Source: Longimicrobiales bacterium (GTDB lineage Bacteria; Gemmatimonadota; Gemmatimonadetes; Longimicrobiales; Gaopeijiaceae). Taken from it: DNA of 64,000 bases. Position numbers and translations under genes: made by a program. Location: positions 1,706,576-1,770,575 of the forward strand of contig OX639991.1 in the NCBI GenBank assembly GCA_951828585.1, written 5' to 3'. The notes beneath the pieces were generated by a model. It was not told the DNA's origin and did not search any database. It saw only the letters and a list, made by a program, of their open reading frames with translations. Of the stretch, positions 13,178 to 29,074 are shown piece by piece. Numbering within the stretch: position 1 is the first letter of the stretch; each line of letters opens with the position of its first letter.

Positions 13178-15670
13178 ATGTTCCCCGGCACCATCACCCG
13201 TCCCGGCACTCGCATCGCGGCCATCGCCCCAACGTGCGCCTTCGCGTTCCTCGCGCTCGTCTCCGCCCCCGCCCCCCTCACCGCCCAGTCCGGCGCCTTC
13301 GGCCACCAGGTCATCATCGACGGTACCGATGTCCTCATCGCCGAACCGACCACCAGTTTCCGCCCTGGCGCGGTCTATATCTACAGCCAGTCGGGCGGCG
13401 CCTGGCGCGAGTCCACCGTCCTGCACGCCCCCGATTCGGAAGATGCGGACGGCTTCGGTACGCTGCTGGCAAAGACCGGCAACACGCTCTTTGTCGGCCA
13501 GCGGGGCGGCCCGATTCACGTCTTCGAGCGCGAGGACGGCGGCGCATGGCAGGCCACGGGAACGATCGAGGGCGACGAGATCGCCGGAGAGTCCCCGACG
13601 TGCCGCTTCGACGGGTACTGCGGAACCGACTTCGGCCTGAGCTTGGCGGCCGGCGGCGATTGGCTGATGGTGGGTGTGCCGGGGGTGCCTGTCAGTCGGT
13701 TCCCGAGACCACCGGATTCAGACGAGGAAGAGCCGACCGATCCCCGGGGCGTGGTGCATGCGTATCAGCGGGACGGCGACGGCAACTGGATCCAGCGCGC
13801 CCAGCTGCAGCCCGGCGACGGCACGGACGGCGATTTCTTCGGCGCGGCCATCCTCTTCACCTCGCATGGGGTGCTGATCGCGGCTCCGCAGTGGAGCACG
13901 GGGGACCCGGCAGGCGAACAAACCGGCCGCGTCTATCGGTTCAGCCTGGGTAGCGATGGTTGGGAAGAGGCCGGAGCCCTCGAAACGGACGCGGGGGGCA
14001 ACGCCAACTTCGGGTCTGCCCTCGCGGCCTCGGGTGACAGGGTTCTCGTCGGCGCCCCGGGCGCAAACGACAGCCGGGGCGCGATGTACACGTACACATG
14101 GAACTCCGACCGGTGGGTGCCCGGCGACGAGCGGCTGACTTTCGCTGGTGGAGAGAACGGCGACCGCTTCGGCACGGCCCTGGCCTTTGCCGGGGACGAC
14201 GTGTGGGTCGGCGCGCCCACTACGCGGGGCTACGAACTCGGATCGGCCTTCGTGTACGAGGCGCAGGCGGACGGTTCGCTGCCCGCCCAGCCACGCCGCA
14301 TCCAGCTCCCCATGGAAGAGACGGTCGAAAGCGACAACTTCGGCGGCCTGGTCGTCGCGGACGCCGGCAACGTTGCCGTCGGGGCGCCCGGCATGCACCA
14401 CCAGGCCGGCTCGGTCCACCTCTTCCAGCGCAACGGCGGCGACTGGGGCGATGGCGAGATGCTCGTCAGCGCGCCCGATATGCTCGCGGCGGTCGTCGGC
14501 GAAGAGCACCGCTGCCCTGAAGAGGGCCGCGTCGGCCTCTTCGACTGCGACGAGATCGAGCTGCTCGCGTACATCCCGCCCTCGCTTCTCCGGGCCGGGG
14601 ACCGCGCCCGCGGCGTGCGCGCCAACGACAACTGGGGCTGGACCGACCCCGAAACCGGGCGCGAGTATGCGCTCGTGGGACGCAACGACGGTACATCGTT
14701 CGTCGACCTCACCGATCCCACCAACCCGGTCCTCGTGGGCGACCTTCCCAAGCCTTGGGGCACCCCGCCATCGCAGCTCTGGCGCGACATCAAGACGTAC
14801 AAGAGTCACGCGTTCGTGGTAGCCGACGGCGCGGGCGAGCACGGCATGCAAGTTCTGGATCTCACACGCCTGCGCGATATTACCCCGGACGAGATGCCCG
14901 TAGTCTTCGAACCCGACGTGCACTACCGCCGCATCGGAAGCTCGCACAACATCGCGATCAACGAGGAGACCGGCATCGCATATACGATCGGCGGCGGCGG
15001 CGCGGGCGACACCTGCGGCGGCGGCCTCCACATGATCGACATCAACGATCCCAAGAACCCCGAGTTCGTCGGTTGTGCTCCCACAGGCGGCACTCACGAC
15101 ACCCAGTGCGTCACCTACAGTGGCCCCGACGAGGACTACCAGGGACGGGAGGTGTGTTTCAACTCGAACGGCCGCACATTCCAGATCCAGGACGTCACCG
15201 ACAAGCAAAACCCGGCTACCCTGGGGAGCGGCTCCTCACCGAATCCCGCCTACATCCACCAGGGCTGGCTCACCGACGACCACCGCTACTTCTACCAGAA
15301 CGACGAGGCCGACGTGATCGCCGGCAACGCGGAGACCACGCGCACCCTCGTCTGGGACGTCACCGATCTCGAGGACCCCGTGCTGGTCAATGAATTCATG
15401 GGCTCCATGCCCGCCAGCGCGCACAACCTGTACATCAAGGGCGACCTGATGTACCAGGCCAACTATCTCTACGGCCTGCACATCCTCGACATCTCGGATC
15501 CGGAGAACCCGCGCGAGGTCGGCTACTTCGACACGGCGCCGCACGCGGAGGGGCCGGGGTTCGGCGGTGCGTGGAGCAACTACCCGTACTTCGAGAGCGG
15601 CACGATCATCGTGACCAGCATGCAGGAGGGGCTGTTCGTGTTGAGGAAGAGGGTGCGGCCGGTGAGTTGA
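13178..15670 (+). CDS. Choice-of-anchor B-type secreted protein (FG-GAP plus LVIVD repeats)
   Basis: An 830-residue exported protein. The ribosome site AGGAG is 6 bases before the ATG and a signal peptide ends near APLTAQS. Residues about 40-440 form FG-GAP-like blades (FGSALAASGDRVLVGAPGAND, FGTALAFAGDDVWVGAP). Residues about 470-830 carry LVIVD-type repeats (FVDLTDPTNPVLVGDLP, MIDINDPKNPEFVG, ILDISDPENPREVGYFD). Both form propellers. Members of this family are cell-surface or secreted and often metal-binding, but no enzymatic role is established. The ending VLRKRVRPVS is short, with no sorting signal visible. Confidence 0.87.
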   Translation: MFPGTITRPGTRIAAIAPTCAFAFLALVSAPAPLTAQSGAFGHQVIIDGTDVLIAEPTTSFRPGAVYIYSQSGGAWRESTVLHAPDSEDADGFGTLLAKTGNTLFVGQRGGPIHVFEREDGGAWQATGTIEGDEIAGESPTCRFDGYCGTDFGLSLAAGGDWLMVGVPGVPVSRFPRPPDSDEEEPTDPRGVVHAYQRDGDGNWIQRAQLQPGDGTDGDFFGAAILFTSHGVLIAAPQWSTGDPAGEQTGRVYRFSLGSDGWEEAGALETDAGGNANFGSALAASGDRVLVGAPGANDSRGAMYTYTWNSDRWVPGDERLTFAGGENGDRFGTALAFAGDDVWVGAPTTRGYELGSAFVYEAQADGSLPAQPRRIQLPMEETVESDNFGGLVVADAGNVAVGAPGMHHQAGSVHLFQRNGGDWGDGEMLVSAPDMLAAVVGEEHRCPEEGRVGLFDCDEIELLAYIPPSLLRAGDRARGVRANDNWGWTDPETGREYALVGRNDGTSFVDLTDPTNPVLVGDLPKPWGTPPSQLWRDIKTYKSHAFVVADGAGEHGMQVLDLTRLRDITPDEMPVVFEPDVHYRRIGSSHNIAINEETGIAYTIGGGGAGDTCGGGLHMIDINDPKNPEFVGCAPTGGTHDTQCVTYSGPDEDYQGREVCFNSNGRTFQIQDVTDKQNPATLGSGSSPNPAYIHQGWLTDDHRYFYQNDEADVIAGNAETTRTLVWDVTDLEDPVLVNEFMGSMPASAHNLYIKGDLMYQANYLYGLHILDISDPENPREVGYFDTAPHAEGPGFGGAWSNYPYFESGTIIVTSMQEGLFVLRKRVRPVS

Positions 15671-20418: not shown

Positions 20419-20436
20419 GACTGGAAACGGGAGTAC

Positions 20437-20476
20437 GAAAGCCCCGCGCCGCGGTGATGAGCGGCGCGGGGCTTTC
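20437..20476. terminator. Bidirectional intrinsic terminator
   Basis: A 16-bp perfect stem (GAAAGCCCCGCGCCGC with its complement) and an 8-base loop, with A-rich and T-containing flanks on both sides. It sits between the convergent genes ending at 20418 (+) and 20504 (-). Confidence 0.85.
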
Positions 20477-20503
20477 GTTTGGGCCGTTGGGGTGGCGTCC
20501 GGC

Positions 20504-22585
20504 TCAGCCTGCCTCTGCGGCCAGGCGACGGACCGCGACCAACAGCTCGCGGACTTTCTCGGAGTCGGCCGCGTCAGCAGCTGCTTCCCGAAGCCTCCTG
20601 GCCAGGGCCACGAGGGTATCCTGCCGATCCTCTCCCGATGCCGCTTCGGCCGCATCCAGTACCTGGCGCGCCGAGGCGACCACCGAGGCCGACACCCCGT
20701 GCCAGCGCTCCAGCTGGTCGACGTAGGCGCGAGCCAGCGCGAAGGTCGCGGGCCACTCGTAGATGGGCTGGCCCTGTGAGTTCAGATGCGTCAGCACCAC
20801 CGAGTTGGCCGCGTCGATCTCGTTCTGGGTGAGGATGTCGCTGGGCGTCAGTTCGAAGATGTCGAGGCCGCGCTGCATCTCGGAGTTGACGATCACGCCG
20901 TTGTACCAGTAGACGGACCATGAACCGGCGCTCATCATGCGCTCGGCGTTGAAGGGGCCGCGGTCGTGGAAGGCGATCTCGACGGGGTTCTTCGGATCGG
21001 TCCAGTCGATGAGCGAGATGCCGCCCTGGTACCATCCCTGGATCATGATGTCGCGACCCGGAATCGGAATGAGCGAGCCGTTGTGGGCGACGCAGTTCTC
21101 CAGCGTGGTCTGCGGCGCGGGCAGTTTGTAGTAGCTCTGGAAGACCATCTCGCCGTCCTCGATGGTGAACACGGCGTTGGCGCCCCATTCCTTCGGGTCG
21201 TCCTCGCGGCACTTGGGCGCGCCGCCGCCGCCCCACTCGTCGGTGAACATGACCTTGCTGCCGTCGTTGCTGAAGGTGGCTGAGTGCCAGTACGAAAAGT
21301 TGGAGTCGGCCACCGCGGCCAGGCGGAAGGGGTTCGCGGGATCGGTGATGTCGAGGAGGAGGCCGTAGCCGCCACAGGCGCCGCCCGCCAGACCGATGTC
21401 GGGGTAGACGGTGATGTCGTGGCACTGGGTCGGGCCGGGGCGGGGCCCCTGGGGCATCTGGGCGCGTTCGGCTGCACGGGCCGCGCCCTCGGCGTCCATC
21501 TGGAGGAGCATTTCTCGCAACGCCGCGCTGTCGGCGGCGGTGACGCCGTCGCCACCCCGCGCGTCCACGATGCTGTCCAGCAGCGGCTGGACGAACCGGT
21601 CGGGCATGACCGACAGGCGGCCACCGCCGAATTCACGTACGAACGCACCCCGCTCGCGTGCGGCCTCGGCTTCGGCCCGCGCCTCCTCCTGGGCCCGGAT
21701 GTCGCCCGGCGCCAGACCGTGCCTCGGCGGCGCGACCAGGTCCTGGAAGATGCGCGGCGAGGTGACGATCGCGGCGGCCGTGGGGTCGGCCAGCGGGACG
21801 CGGATCACTTCGATGCGGAAGAGTGCCGAGTTGGGATCCTCGTCCGGCGACAGGGCCGAGCAGCCGGGCAGCTCCTCGGGGGGCCGCACCTGGGACGAGC
21901 CAGAAACGTAGATGTACACGTTCTCGTCGTCACCCGGGTGCTTCAGCACGGTGTGGGTGTGCGAGCCGCGGCAGGTCTGCACGTTGGCGACGTACTGCGG
22001 ATTCCGGATGTCCGAAATGTCGAAGATGCGGATGCCGCGGAGCCGTTCGTGACTGATACGGTCGCGGGCGCCCCGCTCGCAGTCGAGCCGTCCGCCCAGG
22101 CCCTCGCCCGACACGAAGAGAAGGTTCGCGTACACCGAGACATCGCTCTGTGACGCGGGACACACGTAGGTGATCACCGAGACCGGATTGGCGGGATCGG
22201 AGATGTCCCACACCTGGACGCCGTCGTAGTTACCCTGGATGGCGTAGTTCCCGGTGAAGGCGAGGTCGGAGTTGGTCTGGCCGACGAAGGGCTCCTCCGG
22301 TGGCGTGGTCGACAGCATGCGCAGGTTCCAGATGGCCTCGCCGGCGTCGAACATTCCGGGCTCGAGGCCGACGCGGGGGTCGGGGGTGGGTGGGTTGACG
22401 TGCAGGCCGGGGGGATTGGCGAAGGTGGCCGGCGCGACGGGAGTCATGGCGGTTGTCGCGCCGGGATCGGCCGCGGGCTGCGACGCGCAGGCGTGCAGCG
22501 TGGCCATGAGGGCCGTGAGGGAGAGGAACGCCGCGAGGCGTACGAGGGGGCGGCGATGGCCGCTGGTGGTGCTGATCGGGGTCAT
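20504..22585 (-). CDS. LVIVD-repeat lipoprotein (paralogue 1)
   Basis: A 693-residue exported protein. The signal has a plausible lipobox (MATLHAC). A conserved head (NPPGLHVNPPTPDPRVGLEPGMFDAGEAIWNL) precedes LVIVD-type propeller repeats (VQVWDISDPANPVSVITYV, IRIFDISDIRNPQYVANVQ, GISLIDWTDPKNPVEIAF). A C-terminal helical module follows (FALARAYVDQLERWHG, then two Ala/Arg-rich helices ending VRRLAAEAG). It is the last gene of a four-gene minus-strand unit and is closely related to 23376-25457 and 25537-27651. The role is unknown; surface-exposed binding is likely. Confidence 0.88.
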   Translation of the reverse strand: MTPISTTSGHRRPLVRLAAFLSLTALMATLHACASQPAADPGATTAMTPVAPATFANPPGLHVNPPTPDPRVGLEPGMFDAGEAIWNLRMLSTTPPEEPFVGQTNSDLAFTGNYAIQGNYDGVQVWDISDPANPVSVITYVCPASQSDVSVYANLLFVSGEGLGGRLDCERGARDRISHERLRGIRIFDISDIRNPQYVANVQTCRGSHTHTVLKHPGDDENVYIYVSGSSQVRPPEELPGCSALSPDEDPNSALFRIEVIRVPLADPTAAAIVTSPRIFQDLVAPPRHGLAPGDIRAQEEARAEAEAARERGAFVREFGGGRLSVMPDRFVQPLLDSIVDARGGDGVTAADSAALREMLLQMDAEGAARAAERAQMPQGPRPGPTQCHDITVYPDIGLAGGACGGYGLLLDITDPANPFRLAAVADSNFSYWHSATFSNDGSKVMFTDEWGGGGAPKCREDDPKEWGANAVFTIEDGEMVFQSYYKLPAPQTTLENCVAHNGSLIPIPGRDIMIQGWYQGGISLIDWTDPKNPVEIAFHDRGPFNAERMMSAGSWSVYWYNGVIVNSEMQRGLDIFELTPSDILTQNEIDAANSVVLTHLNSQGQPIYEWPATFALARAYVDQLERWHGVSASVVASARQVLDAAEAASGEDRQDTLVALARRLREAAADAADSEKVRELLVAVRRLAAEAG

Positions 22586-22640
22586 GGGGCTGTCCTGACG
22601 TTTGATGGGGTGACCCGGGGGTGGGAAAAGCGTGGCCGGT

Positions 22641-23360
22641 TCAGCGTGCTCCTTCGAGCGCGTCGAGCATGAGCTGCATGCGCTCGATCTCGGAGCTCTG
22701 ATCGGCCTGGATGTCGGAGGCGAGCTTGAAGACGAAATCGTCCTGGGCGGCGCCGTCGGTGTCGAAGAGTTCGAGCACCATCGTGACGGCGCCCTTGTGG
22801 TGCATGATCATGTACTTCAGAAAAAGGCGGTCGAAGTCCGTGCCCTGGGCCCGGCCGAGTTCCTCGAGCTGCTCCTCGGAGAGCATGCCCGGCATGTGCA
22901 TGGCGTGCTCGGGGCCGTGGATCATGAGATGGCCGTCGGCGATGTGGATCTCGGGTACCTCGAGCCCCCGGTCGCGCAGCCACGCCTGCATGACGTCGAT
23001 CTCGTCCTTCTGCGCGTTGATGATGCGCGCGCAGAGCGTCTGGATGGTGGGGCTCGCACCATTTTCCGGTGCGAAACCGGACATGACCAGGGCCTGCGCG
23101 TGGTGCCCGATCATGCCGGTCATGAAGTGCACATCGGCGGCGTGGTAGCCTGTGAGGGCGCTGTCCGCGCGGGCCTGGTAGAGGGCTTCCAGTCTGGAGA
23201 TGGTGGCCGCGTCGGGGCGGGTGACGGGAGGGGCGGGGTCGGTGGTGAATGGATTGGCGGAGGGCTGGATGCTGGGCCGGGGCTCGGGGGCCGGTGCACC
23301 CGCGCAACCGTGGAGCGTGCCGCACAGCAGAGTGGCGAATAGTATGTGACGGTTTTTCAT
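22641..23360 (-). CDS. DUF305-family lipoprotein
   Basis: A 239-residue lipoprotein (lipobox TLHGC) with a DUF305 four-helix domain. The paired His/Met motifs DVHFMTGMIGHHAQALVMSGFAP and FLKYMIMHHKGAVTMVLELF suggest metal (copper-type) binding. Between them lies a segment with HLMIHGPEHAMHMPGML, also His/Met-rich. The ribosome site GGGAGG is 5-6 bases before the ATG. It sits between two LVIVD paralogues in the same operon (gaps of 15 and 55 bases), so a shared envelope function, possibly metal handling, is inferred. Confidence 0.88.
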   Translation of the reverse strand: MKNRHILFATLLCGTLHGCAGAPAPEPRPSIQPSANPFTTDPAPPVTRPDAATISRLEALYQARADSALTGYHAADVHFMTGMIGHHAQALVMSGFAPENGASPTIQTLCARIINAQKDEIDVMQAWLRDRGLEVPEIHIADGHLMIHGPEHAMHMPGMLSEEQLEELGRAQGTDFDRLFLKYMIMHHKGAVTMVLELFDTDGAAQDDFVFKLASDIQADQSSEIERMQLMLDALEGAR

Positions 23361-23375
23361 GGCAACCTCCCTGAC

Positions 23376-25457
23376 TCAGCCGGCGTCCGCCAGGCGCTGA
23401 ACCGCGTCGGCCAGCTTGGCGACCTTGTCGGAATCCGCTGCGTCCGCAGCGTGTGCGGCGAGCGCGTTGGCGAGCGAGCGGAGCGTATCGCGGCGGGCCG
23501 TCCCCGAGCCGCTCTCGGCCGAGTCCAGCGCGCTCCGTGCGGCGGCCACCCGCGGCGCATCCATCCCGTGCCAGCGTTCGAGCTGGTCCACGTAGGCGCG
23601 GGCCAGCGCGAAGGTGGCCGGCCATTCGTAAACGGGCTGCCCCTGCGAGTTCAGGTGCGTGAGCTGTACCGAGTTGGCCGCGTCGATCTCGTTCTGGGTG
23701 AGGGATTCGCTGGGGACCAGCTCGAAGATGTCGAGTCCGCGCATGATCTCGGAATTCACGATGACGCCGTTGTACCAGTACACGGACCAGCTGCCGGCCA
23801 TCGCCATCTGGTTGGCGTTGAAGGGGCCGCGGTCGTGGAATGCGATCTCGACGGGATTCTTCGGGTCGGTCCAGTCGATCAGCGAGATGCCGCCCTGGTA
23901 CCAGCCCTGGATCATGATGTCGCGCCCCGGAATCGGAATGAGCGAGCCGTTGTGGGCGACACAGTTCTCCAGCGTGGTCTGCGGGGCGGGGAGCTTGAAG
24001 TAGCTCTGGAAGACCATCTCCCCGTCCTCGACCGTGAAGATGGCGTTGGCGCCCCACTCCACCGGGTCGTCCTCGCGGCATTTCGGCCCGCCGCCGCCGC
24101 CCCACTCGTCGGTGAACATGACGGCCGTGCCGTCGTTGTTGAACGTCGCCGAGTGCCAGTACGAGAAGTTGGAGTCGGCGACGGCCGCGAGGCGGGTCGG
24201 GTTCTCGGGGTCGGTGATGTCGAGGAGGAGGCCGTAGCCTTCGCATGCGCCGCCCGCAAGGCCGATGTCGGGGTAGACGGTGATGTCGTGGCACTGGGTG
24301 GGGCCGGGGGGCGGGCCGTCTTCGGGTGGGCCTCCTCCCGCGGCCATCATCTGGGCGACCATTTCGTTGAAGTACTCGCGCAAGGCGGTGCTGTCGGCGG
24401 CGGTCGGGGCACCTTCCCCTCCCCGCTCTTCGACGATGCTGTCGAGCATCGGGGTGACGAACTGAGCGGGCAGAACCTGTACCTGCCCCATGATCTCAAG
24501 GGCGAATTCCCCCCGTGCGCGGGCCTCGTCGGCAATTCTCGCGTCAGCCGGGGAGGCGCCGTGCTGGGGCGGTGCCACCAGGTCCTGGAAGATGCGGGGC
24601 GAACTAACGATCGCGGCAGATGCGGGATCGGCGAGTGGAACGCGGATCACCTCGATCCTGAAGAGTGAAGAGTTGGGGTCCTCTTCGGGAGAAAGAGCCG
24701 AGCAACCCGGCAGCTCCTCGGCCGGCCGCACCATCGAAGAACCGGACACGTATATGTAAACATTCTCGTCATCACCCGGATGCTCCAGTACCGTGTGGGT
24801 ATGAGAGCCCCGGCAGGTCTGCACGTTTCCGACGTACTCGGGGTTGGCGATATCGGAAATGTCGAAGATGCGGATGCCGCGGAGCCGTTCGTGGCTGACC
24901 TGTTCCTGGATCCCCTGGTCGCCGCAATCCAGGCGCGCGCTGAAGTCCTCGCCCGAGACGAAGAGGAGGTTCTCGTACACCGACACGTCGCTCTGAGAAG
25001 CGGGGCAGACATGGGAAACAACGGACACCGGATTGGCCGGATCGGAGATGTCCCAGATCTGGATCCCGTTGAAGTTGCCCTGGATGGCGTAGTTGCCGGT
25101 GAAGGCGAGGTCGGAGTTGATCCCGCCGACGAAGGCGTCGGGCGGGGGCGTGGTCGACCGCATGCGGAGGTTCCAGATGGCTTCGCCCGCGTCGAACATC
25201 CCGGGGGCAAGCCCTACGCGGGGGTCCGGCGTGGGCGCGTTGACCTGGAGGCCGGGCGGATTGGCGAACTCGGCGTCCTCGTTGCCGGCGAGCCCGCTGA
25301 GCACCTGAGCCGGAAAAAAGGTCTGCGTCTCTGCCGGCACCGGCGTCCCCTGCGTGGCACATCCCGTCAGGATGGCCAGCGCGGCCGGGAGGGAAAGGAG
25401 CGCCCCGAGGCGCGCGAGCTTCCGGGAACGGTCGTTCACGGTGGTGATCCGAGTCAT
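23376..25457 (-). CDS. LVIVD-repeat lipoprotein (paralogue 2)
   Basis: 693 residues, starting MTRITTVNDRSRKLARLGALLSLPAALAILTGC with a lipobox LTGC. The start at 25457 is chosen because AGGAAG lies just upstream and the N-terminus then parallels the other two paralogues; the longer frame runs into the preceding gene's 3' end. It shares the PTPDPRVGLAPGMFDAGEAIWNL head, DISDPANPVSVVSHV-type repeats and the C-terminal helical tail (VAKLADAVQRLADAG). It is the second gene of the operon. Confidence 0.88.
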   Translation of the reverse strand: MTRITTVNDRSRKLARLGALLSLPAALAILTGCATQGTPVPAETQTFFPAQVLSGLAGNEDAEFANPPGLQVNAPTPDPRVGLAPGMFDAGEAIWNLRMRSTTPPPDAFVGGINSDLAFTGNYAIQGNFNGIQIWDISDPANPVSVVSHVCPASQSDVSVYENLLFVSGEDFSARLDCGDQGIQEQVSHERLRGIRIFDISDIANPEYVGNVQTCRGSHTHTVLEHPGDDENVYIYVSGSSMVRPAEELPGCSALSPEEDPNSSLFRIEVIRVPLADPASAAIVSSPRIFQDLVAPPQHGASPADARIADEARARGEFALEIMGQVQVLPAQFVTPMLDSIVEERGGEGAPTAADSTALREYFNEMVAQMMAAGGGPPEDGPPPGPTQCHDITVYPDIGLAGGACEGYGLLLDITDPENPTRLAAVADSNFSYWHSATFNNDGTAVMFTDEWGGGGGPKCREDDPVEWGANAIFTVEDGEMVFQSYFKLPAPQTTLENCVAHNGSLIPIPGRDIMIQGWYQGGISLIDWTDPKNPVEIAFHDRGPFNANQMAMAGSWSVYWYNGVIVNSEIMRGLDIFELVPSESLTQNEIDAANSVQLTHLNSQGQPVYEWPATFALARAYVDQLERWHGMDAPRVAAARSALDSAESGSGTARRDTLRSLANALAAHAADAADSDKVAKLADAVQRLADAG

Positions 25458-25536
25458 CTTGTCTTCCTGTTCTGGGCTGATCTGTGTGATTTGTCGTAGA
25501 TGCATGTTGGTGGGTGTCGAAGCCGATGGCGAGGGG

Positions 25537-27651
25537 TCAGTCACCCCCGTCCGCCAAACGCTGAACCGCGTCGGCGAGTTTCCGGATCCTGTCGGACTGC
25601 GCCGCATTCTCGGCGTGCGTGTTCAGTGACCGTGCCAAGGAACGGAGCGCATCCCCCCGAGCCGTCCCCGAAGCCCTCTCCCCCGCCGCCAGCTGCGCGC
25701 GCGCCGAGGCGATCTCTTCCCCCGGCAAACCCACCCAGCGCTCCAACTGATCCAGATACGCACGCGCCAGCGCGAAGGTGGCCGGCCACTCGTAGACGGG
25801 CTGGCCCTGGGAATTCAGGTGCTTCAGCCGCACGGAATTGGCGGCGTCGATTTCGTTCTGCGTAAGCGCCTCGCTGGTGACGAGCTGGAAGATGTCCAGC
25901 CCCCGCGCGATCTCGGAGTTCACGATCACGCCGTTGTACCAGTACACGGACCAGCTGCCGGCGGCCTGCATGCGTTCGCCGTTGAAGGGGCCGCGGTCGT
26001 GGTAGGCGATCTCGACGGGGTTCCGCGGGTCGGTCCAGTCGATGAGCGAGATCCCGCCCTGGTACCACCCCTGGATCATGATGTCGCGCCCCGGTACCGG
26101 AATGAGCGAGCCGTTGTGGGCGACGCAGTTCTCCAGCGTGGTCTGCGCGGCGGGCAGCTTGAAGTAGCTCTGGAAGACCATCGTGCCGTCTTCGATCGTG
26201 AAGATGGCGTTGGCGCCCCACTCCATCGGGTCGTCCACGCGGCACTTGGGCGCCAGTCCGCCGCCCCACTCGTCGGTGAAGAGGATCTTGCTGCCGTCGT
26301 TGCTGAAGGTGGCCGAGTGCCAGTACGCGAAGTTGGAGTCGGCCACCGCATCGAGCCGGAACGGGTTGGCGGGGTCGCTGATGTCGAGAAGGAGGCCGTA
26401 GCCGCCGCACGCACCGCCCGCCAGGCCGATCGCCGGATACACGGTGATGTCGTGACACTGGGTGGGACCGGGGCGTGGACCATCGGCCGGCTGGGCCCGG
26501 CGCGTGCCCATCGGGGTGATGGCCGCAGGCATCGAGGCTCGGCGCGTCGCTTCCAGTTGGTCGCGCAAGGCCACACTGTCGGCGGCGGCAGGCGGGCCCT
26601 CTCCCCCACGCGCCGCAACAATGCTGTCCAGTCGATCCCCGGCCTCGGCGGCCGACAACGTCACCACCAGATCGGCCGCTTCCACCACGAAATCACCCCG
26701 CTCACGCGCCTCCCGGGCACGAGTCTTCCTCTCCTCTTCGCGCGCCCTCCTTCTCTCCTCCATGCGCGCCATCGCCTGCTCCATGGCCGCGATGTCGCCC
26801 GGCGCCGGACCGTGCGTCTCCGGCGCAACCAGGTCCTGGAAGATCCGGGGCGAAGTCACGATCGCGGCCGCCCCGGGGTTGTCGACCGGCACGCGGATCA
26901 CCTCGATCCTGAACAGCGACGAGTTGGGGTCCTCCTCCGGCGACAGCGCCGAACAGCCGGACAGCTCCTCGGACGGACGCACCGACGACGAGCCCGACAC
27001 GTAGATGTAGACGTTCTCCTCGTCGCCCGGGTGCTCGAGCACCGTATGGGTGTGCGACCCGCGGCACGTCTGCACGTTCGCGACGTACTCCGGACTGGCG
27101 ATGGCCGAGATGTCGAAGATGCGGATGCCGCGAAGGCGCGCATGGCTCACTTGCTCGCGCACGCCCTCGTCACCGCAATCCAGCCGCGCGCTCAGGTCCT
27201 CGCCGGAGACGAACAGCAGGTTCCCGTACACCGACACGTCGCTCTGCGAGGCCGGACAGACATGGGTCACCACCGACACGGGGTTTGCCGGGTCGGAGAT
27301 GTCCCACACCTGGATGCCGTTGAAATTGCCCTGGATGGCGTACTTGCCGGTGAACGCCAGGTCGGAGTTCATCGCGCCCACAAACTCCTCGGGCGGCGGC
27401 GTGGTCGAGAGGAGTTCGAGGTTCCAGATCGCCTCGCCCGCGTCGAACATGCCGGAGGCGAGGCCTACGCGGGGGTCGGGGGTGGGTGGCGTGACCTGGA
27501 GGCCGGGGGGAGTGACTGCCGGGGGTGCGAGGGGCTCCGCGCCCGAGGTGGTTGCCGCGTATGAGGAGCAACCGTATGAGACGGCCACCCCCAGGAATAG
27601 GAGCGCCAAAAGCGCCCGTTGGCGAGCACTCGCGGTGGCGATGGGAGTCAT
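25537..27651 (-). CDS. LVIVD-repeat lipoprotein (paralogue 3)
   Basis: 704 residues from the ATG at 27651 (MTPIATASARQRALLALLFLGVAVSYGC, lipobox VSYGC). It has the same head, LVIVD repeats and tail (IRKLADAVQRLADGGD) as its two downstream paralogues. It is distinguished by a highly charged helical insertion (MARMEERRRAREEERKTRAREARERGD) around residues 310-340. It is the promoter-proximal gene of the four-gene unit, and the intergenic gap to the divergent MFS gene is about 250 bases. Confidence 0.88.
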   Translation of the reverse strand: MTPIATASARQRALLALLFLGVAVSYGCSSYAATTSGAEPLAPPAVTPPGLQVTPPTPDPRVGLASGMFDAGEAIWNLELLSTTPPPEEFVGAMNSDLAFTGKYAIQGNFNGIQVWDISDPANPVSVVTHVCPASQSDVSVYGNLLFVSGEDLSARLDCGDEGVREQVSHARLRGIRIFDISAIASPEYVANVQTCRGSHTHTVLEHPGDEENVYIYVSGSSSVRPSEELSGCSALSPEEDPNSSLFRIEVIRVPVDNPGAAAIVTSPRIFQDLVAPETHGPAPGDIAAMEQAMARMEERRRAREEERKTRAREARERGDFVVEAADLVVTLSAAEAGDRLDSIVAARGGEGPPAAADSVALRDQLEATRRASMPAAITPMGTRRAQPADGPRPGPTQCHDITVYPAIGLAGGACGGYGLLLDISDPANPFRLDAVADSNFAYWHSATFSNDGSKILFTDEWGGGLAPKCRVDDPMEWGANAIFTIEDGTMVFQSYFKLPAAQTTLENCVAHNGSLIPVPGRDIMIQGWYQGGISLIDWTDPRNPVEIAYHDRGPFNGERMQAAGSWSVYWYNGVIVNSEIARGLDIFQLVTSEALTQNEIDAANSVRLKHLNSQGQPVYEWPATFALARAYLDQLERWVGLPGEEIASARAQLAAGERASGTARGDALRSLARSLNTHAENAAQSDRIRKLADAVQRLADGGD

Positions 27652-27901
27652 GTGATGCGTCGGGTGTGTCAGGCTGGCCACCGGACTCCTCTTCCGGCTG
27701 ACTTGGGAAAGGGGCGGAAAAAACCGCCAAGCCTTGAATCATATGGATCGGCGGCGTTGCTTTCCAGTCGTACCAAGGACACCGAAACGACCAACTCCGT
27801 TGGTGGCCGGCGGGCGGACTTGACCCCAACCGGCCGTTTGCGGAAGGTGACTCGGCTCAGAGACCTCACCTCCCACCTGGCGAACCCGGAGAACCGACCG
27901 G

Positions 27902-29074
27902 ATGTCCCCCTCCGCCGTGCGCATCGCGGTCATCATCGCGCTGGCGCACGGCATCAACGACGCCTACGCCTCGATCGTGCCGCCGCTGCTGCCGCGGATC
28001 ATGGACGATCTGGGGATTTCCATTGCGATGGCGGCGGTCCTGGGCGCCGCGTTCTCCATCGCGACGGCGCTTCCCCAGCCCCTCTTCGGCTACCTGGGAG
28101 ACCGCTTCGGACGCAGGACTCTGGCGGTGGGCGGAATGCTCGTGAGCGCGATGTTCGTGTCGCTTATCGGGTTCGCGTCGTCGTACTGGGTTCTGCTCGT
28201 GCTGCTGGTGGTCGGGGGACTTGGAGGCGCGGCGTTTCACCCGCCCGGGGCGTCATATGCCGTCCGCTTGTCCGAGGGGCAAGGGGGCGGCGCCCGCTAC
28301 TCGATCTTCTCGTTCGGGGGCGCGGCCGGATACTCCGTGGGGCCGCTGGTGGCGGTCGGGTTGGTCGCTTGGGGGGGGATGGAGAGGCTTTGGGTCGCGA
28401 TGCTGCCCGCGCTCCTGCTTGCCCCTTTCTTCTTCCGGGGACTGCCCAGCGGGCGAATGGAGGCCCGGAGCGCCGCGCCCGCGCCTCCGCCGTCGGACGT
28501 CCTCCGCCAGCTTGCCGGCCCCCTCGGCATCGTCTTCGGGATCAGCTCGGCGATGACCTTCGTGCAGCGGGCCTTCCTGACCATGGAGCCGATCATCGTG
28601 GCCGAGATGGGGGGCTCCGAGGCGCTGGGCGCGGTGGCGCTCTCGGTGTACCTCGGCGCGCAGGCCTTCGGCACGGTGGCCGGAGGGGTTCTGACGGACC
28701 GGATGGACCGTCGCAAGCTGCTCTTCCGGCTGTGCGCGCTGGCACTTCCGGCGCACCTGCTGGCTGTTTGGCTGGGACCCTGGAACGGGCTCGGCCTCGC
28801 GGCCATCGCGATGGCGGGCTTTCTCGGCATGTCCACGCTGCCCCCCATCGTCGTCATGGCCCAGGAGATGATTCCGCGGGCACCCGGCGCCAGTTCGGGG
28901 ATCGTGATGGGGCTTGCGTGGACGGTGGGTTCGGTTGGGGTGATGGGGACGGGCGTGGTAGCCGACGTGGCGGGGCCGCAAACCGCCGCGCTGCTGTCGA
29001 TGCCGGTGGCGGGTCTGGCCGCGCTGCTGGCGCTTCACCCCGGGTTGAAGTGGATGGGGACGAAGGGTGGGTGA
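27902..29074 (+). CDS. MFS transporter, fosmidomycin-resistance-like
   Basis: A 390-residue integral membrane protein with about 12 hydrophobic segments. The N-terminal HGINDAYAS motif and the loop LFGYLGDRFGRRTLAVGG are typical of the Fsr-like branch of the major facilitator superfamily. FHPPGASYAV in helix 4 also fits that branch. It probably exports a small drug-like or metabolite substrate. It is monocistronic, with a CGGAG ribosome site 12 bases before the ATG. Confidence 0.88.
   Translation: MSPSAVRIAVIIALAHGINDAYASIVPPLLPRIMDDLGISIAMAAVLGAAFSIATALPQPLFGYLGDRFGRRTLAVGGMLVSAMFVSLIGFASSYWVLLVLLVVGGLGGAAFHPPGASYAVRLSEGQGGGARYSIFSFGGAAGYSVGPLVAVGLVAWGGMERLWVAMLPALLLAPFFFRGLPSGRMEARSAAPAPPPSDVLRQLAGPLGIVFGISSAMTFVQRAFLTMEPIIVAEMGGSEALGAVALSVYLGAQAFGTVAGGVLTDRMDRRKLLFRLCALALPAHLLAVWLGPWNGLGLAAIAMAGFLGMSTLPPIVVMAQEMIPRAPGASSGIVMGLAWTVGSVGVMGTGVVADVAGPQTAALLSMPVAGLAALLALHPGLKWMGTKGG

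Follow-up and report, generated by a model that had tools for sequence, protein, structure and literature searches.

We analyzed a 64,000-nucleotide stretch of the genome of a Longimicrobiales bacterium (GenBank assembly GCA_951828585.1, contig OX639991.1, positions 1,706,576 to 1,770,575), hereafter the window, and examined an operon on its minus strand at 20504-27651 that encodes three LVIVD-repeat β-propeller proteins and one DUF305 lipoprotein. The two kinds of gene belong together far beyond this locus: among the genomes sampled, either gene was present in 299 and both were present in 296 (205/208 and 91/91). What looked like a local curiosity is a widespread two-gene module, and its pairing is new as far as the literature was searched: we found the LVIVD/DUF305 pair described nowhere, and found no paper mentioning LVIVD and DUF305 together. 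We consider it an evenly balanced proposition that the two proteins form an envelope module, with DUF305 as the metal-binding partner of a lipid-anchored propeller that carries an axial metal site. A more specific reading, which we put forward tentatively, is a family of metal-dependent, most likely copper-dependent, propeller enzymes with a dedicated CopM-type metallochaperone, inherited as a unit in Gemmatimonadota, in a Rhodothermales/Balneolaceae class and in one or more genera of Actinomycetota, paralogous pairs being present within single genomes.

In the direction of transcription, the tightly spaced operon comprises LVIVD-3 (25537..27651, 704 amino acids, with an N-terminal signal), LVIVD-2 (23376..25457, a lipoprotein-type propeller of 693 amino acids, the one that we modelled), the CopM-type DUF305 lipoprotein with its two MxxHH motifs (22641..23360, 239 amino acids) and LVIVD-1 (20504..22585, 693 amino acids), whose position 3' of DUF305 we take as the ancestral order. 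These open reading frames (ORFs) confirmed the three paralogues of about 700 residues and the DUF305 protein proposed in the initial annotation, which had been made from the sequence without database searches. The starts of LVIVD-3 and LVIVD-2 are chosen ones, as the ORF list contains longer frames (714 and 743 amino acids). The intergenic gaps, counted on the sequence, are 79, 15 and 55 nt, a spacing that suggests a single transcript. The two other propeller paralogues share 74 and 76% identity with LVIVD-2. The host genome, a single contig of 4.47 Mb whose closest relatives in the genome collection carry the label Gemmatimonadota, holds only these three full propeller copies and one DUF305 gene, that of the operon; nine further partial propeller matches coincide with matches to another family, choice-of-anchor B (TIGR04312).

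The initial annotation had staked its proposal beforehand on co-conservation of DUF305 with the LVIVD genes in relatives, and this is what we found. A scan of the genome collection confirmed 429 relatives, of which the best 80 were kept; the resulting 76 loci are, by this selection, biased to near relatives. DUF305 adjoins the propeller in 69 of them, and in the seven without it (L016, L031, L040, L046, L047, L049, L064) the propeller gene lies at a contig end, according to the coordinates. We then surveyed 249 Gemmatimonadota genomes (thresholds E 1e-60 for the propeller and E 1e-10 for DUF305; lists compared by eye). The propeller was present in 207 and DUF305 in 206, with both in 205 and neither in 41. 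A propeller without DUF305 occurred only in G239 and G115, and DUF305 without a propeller only in G179. The G115 propeller is a C-terminal fragment only, and both G239 loci end just past the gene, so the latter case may be an assembly gap.

The same picture emerged in the class to which both Aliifodinibius salipaludis (L084) and the Rhodothermales genome L076 belong, where both genes occur in the same 91 of 117 genomes. Within 1 kb downstream of every DUF305 place counted in this class (99 of 99; split matches counted once, one piece each entered) there is a propeller match in the same orientation. Two C-terminal propeller fragments, G305:C2 and G320:C1, lie on contig stretches that gave no match to DUF305. 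As a yardstick for copper demand we used COX1, which is present in 244 of the 249 phylum genomes. The presence of the oxidase therefore does not explain which 41 genomes are without the pair, and copper demand was rejected as an explanation of the distribution.

The two genes have also multiplied together. In 17 genomes selected for diverged, many or missing copies (split matches hand-counted once), 31 of 34 DUF305 proteins adjoin a propeller match, one such match being a fragment (G188:C2); the unpaired ones are G179:C732, G188:C6 and G046:C5. Diverged propeller copies come with their own DUF305, as in G150 and G092, which carry six and four DUF305 genes, each with its own propeller gene. The DUF305 and propeller distance matrices are correlated (r 0.86, n 38, 0/2000 permutations; pairs L096, L099 and L109 left out for their short DUF305 sequence), with a contribution from shared species history. 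When copies were labelled main or diverged, the DUF305 tree needed one change (in 90% of bootstrap trees) and the propeller tree two; these two may stem from L094, which is a truncated copy of the main type but was called 'diverged' on account of its bit score. Copies upstream and copies downstream of DUF305 clustered by label in a quickly built tree of 113 propellers, with 4 label changes, at least 3 of them forced, against 24 for shuffled labels. LVIVD-1 groups with the downstream copies, and LVIVD-2 and LVIVD-3 with the upstream ones. Since a single propeller gene follows DUF305 in simple genomes, we take this as the original order, and the window propeller has probably been triplicated around a single DUF305. 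Four contigs titled Gammaproteobacteria (L032, L033, L037, L041) have propellers that group among those of Gemmatimonadota in the tree, and these bin names may be wrong.

A search of the plasmid collection yielded a single record with the propeller, from Nonomuraea gerenzanensis (Actinomycetota), at 46% identity over 60% of the query. At both places examined there (L132 and L133), DUF305 directly adjoins the propeller and is divergently transcribed. Such an orientation speaks for selection acting on the two genes as a pair and against the simple inheritance of a single operon. The initial annotation had proposed a metal-linked functional unit. Co-occurrence, adjacency, co-duplication and the arrangement in another phylum strongly support the unit, whereas support for the metal link is indirect and comes from the MxxHH motifs, the copper genes beside other DUF305 genes and the Asp/His core at the propeller axis.

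The DUF305 protein of the window matches PF03713 at 140.4 bits against a cut-off of 27 (E 6.3e-41, model positions 1-151). Its two motifs, M83xxH86H87 and M184xxH187H188, are invariant in 43 of 43 aligned rows (42 of 57 plus the window protein) and in register with those of Synechocystis pCopM. A motif filter had removed 13 of 70 frames from this alignment (L026, L030, L032, L033, L039, L041, L055, L058, L060, L069, L073, L086 and L088), and these also show two HH motifs. The CopM profile NF049983 matched all 43 rows at E 0.001 or better (best 1e-29). All 43 have a Cys in the lipobox column, that of L076 lying outside a lipobox. The available text of PMC4335983 reports that CopM binds Cu(I) with a KD of about 3.7e-16 and that its loss renders cells copper-sensitive. 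MxxHH peptides of CopM bind Cu(II), and the motif is described in PMC11836926, according to the part of that paper at hand. Beyond copper binding by CopM, little is established in the DUF305 literature searched. In annotated plasmid regions around DUF305, copper or heavy-metal genes lie within 3 kb in six of nine (H2, H3, H5, H6, H13, H38). These regions were hand-picked among the best 40 of 196 records; twelve were inspected and nine counted, leaving out the unannotated H1 and H41 as well as H31, which is pCopM itself and adjoins arsenate reductase and two-component genes.

We utilized AlphaFold2 to predict the structure of LVIVD-2 from an alignment of 63 proteins (the three window proteins and 60 of the 106 rows retained; L056 and L080, which have no start motif, and frames below 800 bits were left out). 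A Cys occupies the lipobox column in 62 of the 63 rows. The model (pLDDT 85.1, pTM 0.84) shows a seven-bladed propeller at residues 91-579 (23718..25184, minus strand), a mainly helical and variable insert between blades 3 and 4 at residues 302-372 (24339..24551) and a tail of four C-terminal helices at residues 615-691 (23382..23612). Blades were assigned by us from the AlphaFold2 strand list, and residue numbers refer to a reference beginning at 25454, one lower than when counted from Met. The LVIVD repeats that the initial annotation had seen in all three proteins hold in that the model is a full seven-bladed propeller, but only two proteins pass the PF08309 cut-off of 20.2 bits (28.5 and 29.2), with LVIVD-1 at 15.7. 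The best Foldseek match of the model was the Sphingobium phosphotriesterase 5hrm (E 2.6e-14, 636 columns, 12% identity), followed by a runner-up fold at E 1.4e-9. When ranked by Z-score, the leading matches were WD40 and other propellers (Z 29-30), which makes the fold by itself unspecific. The methanethiol oxidase/SBP56 profile NF052453 gave a 31-residue match (E 0.0086) in one Nonomuraea homologue and no match at E 1 in any of the three window proteins.

The C-terminal helical module noticed in the initial annotation is real: folded alone, the tail is predicted confidently (pLDDT 90.9). The weight placed on it was misplaced. Both insert and tail are absent from two Nonomuraea homologues, L132 and L133a (468 and 474 amino acids, stop to stop; a third Nonomuraea copy runs off the end of the retrieved sequence), and since these are paired with DUF305 all the same, the tail is dispensable for pairing. 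In G283, G310, G347 and others in the Aliifodinibius class, propeller matches end near model position 632-652, and part of the tail seems to be missing or diverged there. No known domain accounted for the tail. Foldseek returned nothing at E below 1.4, and a second structural comparison gave likeness to four-helix bundles only, the best being a designed protein (Z 12.0, 2.3 A over 81 residues). Several copper storage proteins scored Z about 8, which may reflect merely a common arrangement. Comparison with Pfam gave no convincing match (commonest family in 14 of 55 tails, best single-tail E 0.0013), and nothing supports a FIMAH-like domain, which was also considered. The extra helix of about 30 residues ascribed to LVIVD-3 proved shorter: the charged helix of LVIVD-3 exceeds that of LVIVD-2 by 22 residues and that of LVIVD-1 by 15, and the extra helical segment of about 22 residues lies at 26701..26766 on the minus strand (coordinates hand-counted on the sequence).

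A set of conserved residues lies at the predicted axis of the propeller. The first strands of the seven LVIVD-2 blades start with N-S-D115, Q-S-D156, S-H218-T-H220, C-H389-D390, W-H434-S, A-H501-N502 and S-W556-S, which gives an axial set of two Asp, four His and one Trp at inner-strand starts (D115, D156, H218/H220, H389, H434, H501 and W556). Judging from topology and strand order, one polar or aromatic residue per blade would line the propeller axis. E169, D449-E450 and E569 close second strands on the same face. Axial and acidic residues alike show no variation among the 63 near relatives (63/63). They are all kept in 22 further rows (three close relatives, the others 61% down to 46% identical, one row ending before H501), except that E169 is Gln in two. 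The three Nonomuraea copies retain the axial set except for one H220, with Asp in place of E169 and E569. Eight Cys are as conserved as the axial set across the 63 and 22 rows, C214 being lost in Nonomuraea. H298 is invariant in the 63 near relatives, but 13 of the other 22 rows have lost it, and it was therefore dropped from the proposed site. The choice-of-anchor B family has D156, H434, D449-E450, H501-N502 and W556-S557 in register. The axial His/Asp core, which the initial annotation had missed, is the best clue.

From the genes, their pairing, their conservation and the predicted fold, we infer how such a module could work. The ancestral unit would be one DUF305 gene followed by one propeller gene. 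The CopM-type DUF305 lipoprotein would capture a metal, most likely Cu(I), in the cell envelope via its MxxHH motifs. As a dedicated partner of the propeller, either metallochaperone or subunit, it would transfer copper to the axial site or keep copper there. The site would be built from the inner-strand starts (two Asp, four His and one Trp) and the acidic ends of strand b, as in the fold of the Sphingobium phosphotriesterase, and the metal-loaded propeller would be active as a metalloprotein and probably as an enzyme. Should metal indeed be bound by the axial Asp/His core, LVIVD and choice-of-anchor B proteins would join the propeller metalloproteins, with a metal-delivery partner tied to one propeller line. 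The literature searched contained no assigned function for LVIVD propellers and no mention of choice-of-anchor B. The pairing gives DUF305 and the LVIVD propeller each a partner, and both can be tested together.

Several observations weigh against this two-protein metal module. The window DUF305 scores 88.1 bits, below the equivalog cut-off of 90 for CopM (NF049983), for which reason we call it CopM-type and not CopM. Three of the nine annotated plasmid regions (H9, H22, H25) have no metal gene near DUF305, and no copper gene was seen beside the pair in the window, where neighbours were merely read in the ORF list and no scan was made. Full propeller genes without an adjoining DUF305 exist (G018:C1:1153358, G006:C5:62991 and G099:C138:45773, likewise several fragments); these genomes also hold paired copies, and the unpaired propellers may share a partner. 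Sequence similarity to the phosphotriesterase is weak, at E 0.042 with a single protein, 0.23 with a three-row profile and 0.022 with a 63-row profile. The geometry of the axial ring is deduced from strand order, and the conserved residues could shape an active site that holds no metal.

The chief alternative is a hydrolase of the phosphotriesterase kind that uses a different metal. The propeller would then have a binuclear Zn/Mn-type centre and an ester or lactone substrate, DUF305 would supply or buffer the metal or serve as a subunit, and copper would be incidental. The nearest solved fold is indeed the Sphingobium phosphotriesterase, and the sister family choice-of-anchor B matches 5hrm at E 4.8e-6. 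The mix of Asp, Glu and His found here is typical of binuclear hydrolases. However, so close an association with a CopM-type protein speaks for copper, and we regard such a hydrolase as doubtful. If propeller and DUF305 instead bound excess copper jointly, as a sequestering or detoxifying envelope complex without catalysis, the copper sensitivity of CopM mutants (in the accessible portion of PMC4335983) and the metal genes near six of the nine plasmid DUF305 genes would be in keeping with it. Yet the invariant axial set, with its Trp, Asn and Asp-Glu pair, would look like an active site and not a sink, and a propeller present in 207 of 249 phylum genomes suggests more than an occasional resistance trait, which leaves pure sequestration unlikely. 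A merely structural pairing appears quite improbable to us: the propeller would be a surface scaffold for interactions, docking through its tail and insert, with DUF305 as a subunit that no longer handles metal. The helical insert and tail do look like accessory modules and a common fold shows no function, but a scaffold would need neither the invariant Met/His motif residues of DUF305 nor the axial set.

The surroundings of the operon add the following features. A perfect 17-bp inverted repeat with an 8-nt loop, read on the sequence, lies 3' of LVIVD-1 at 20436..20477 and is terminator-like; it falls short of a T run and was not listed by a terminator scan. A promoter scan upstream of the operon returned one sigma-70-like site (27766-27738) with 0.6 expected by chance, and hence no evidence for a promoter. 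Across 27651-27902 the operon is divergent from an MFS-type transporter gene, its family assigned by reading the sequence only. An MFS-type gene is near the operon in close relatives too, in 19 of 76 loci by a crude cluster count.

Among known systems, CopM of Synechocystis (PF03713; NF049983) resembles the window DUF305 protein in its DUF305 domain, in having both MxxHH motifs in register and in being exported. It differs in being encoded with a two-component system, according to the available text of PMC4335983, whereas the window protein is a lipoprotein and has an LVIVD propeller as its constant neighbour. Profile comparison places choice-of-anchor B as the sister family of the LVIVD propellers, homologous to those of the window (hhalign probability 97.5, E 5e-12, 322 columns). 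In contrast to members of that family, the window propellers score 64.2, 66.9 and 61.2 bits against a cut-off of 100, and their insert and tail have no counterpart in the profile alignment. The genome has twelve near-complete and one partial choice-of-anchor B proteins over the cut-off, with invariant Asp/His positions of their own. One lies in the window, an 830-amino-acid protein at 13178-15670 on the plus strand that scores 411 bits. Since the only DUF305 of the genome is that of the operon, choice-of-anchor B here has no DUF305 of its own.

The phosphotriesterase of Sphingobium sp. TCM1 (5hrm, 5ioj) is, like LVIVD-2, a seven-bladed propeller and its best structural match; the two share 12% identity and were compared at the level of the fold. 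The title of the 5hrm paper, as cited in the portion of PMC11656708 at hand, speaks of a binuclear metal centre embedded in a seven-bladed propeller. Starkeya novella has a DUF305 gene at a distance of 12 bp from one for a YVTN propeller (Snov_0990/0991); as far as the accessible part of PMC6527743 tells, the two probably share one promoter activated by an ECF sigma factor, and the propeller gene is highly expressed on tetrathionate. That pair differs from ours in having YVTN and not LVIVD repeats, and the same part of the paper reports it in passing and assigns no function. On actinobacterial plasmids, DUF305 is directly followed by an F510_1955 gene with BNR repeats, probably of propeller type, in four of the nine annotated regions; BNR is over its cut-off in three of the four proteins. 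The F510_1955 protein is no LVIVD propeller but a member of a different family, NF045728, whose model was run on one of the four. The L134-L137 plasmids show a recurring neighbourhood whose genes are drawn from those for DUF6153, DUF305, F510_1955, a four-helix copper-binding protein and a metal ATPase. Overall, the propeller-type genes that recur next to DUF305 have three kinds of repeat: LVIVD, YVTN and BNR.

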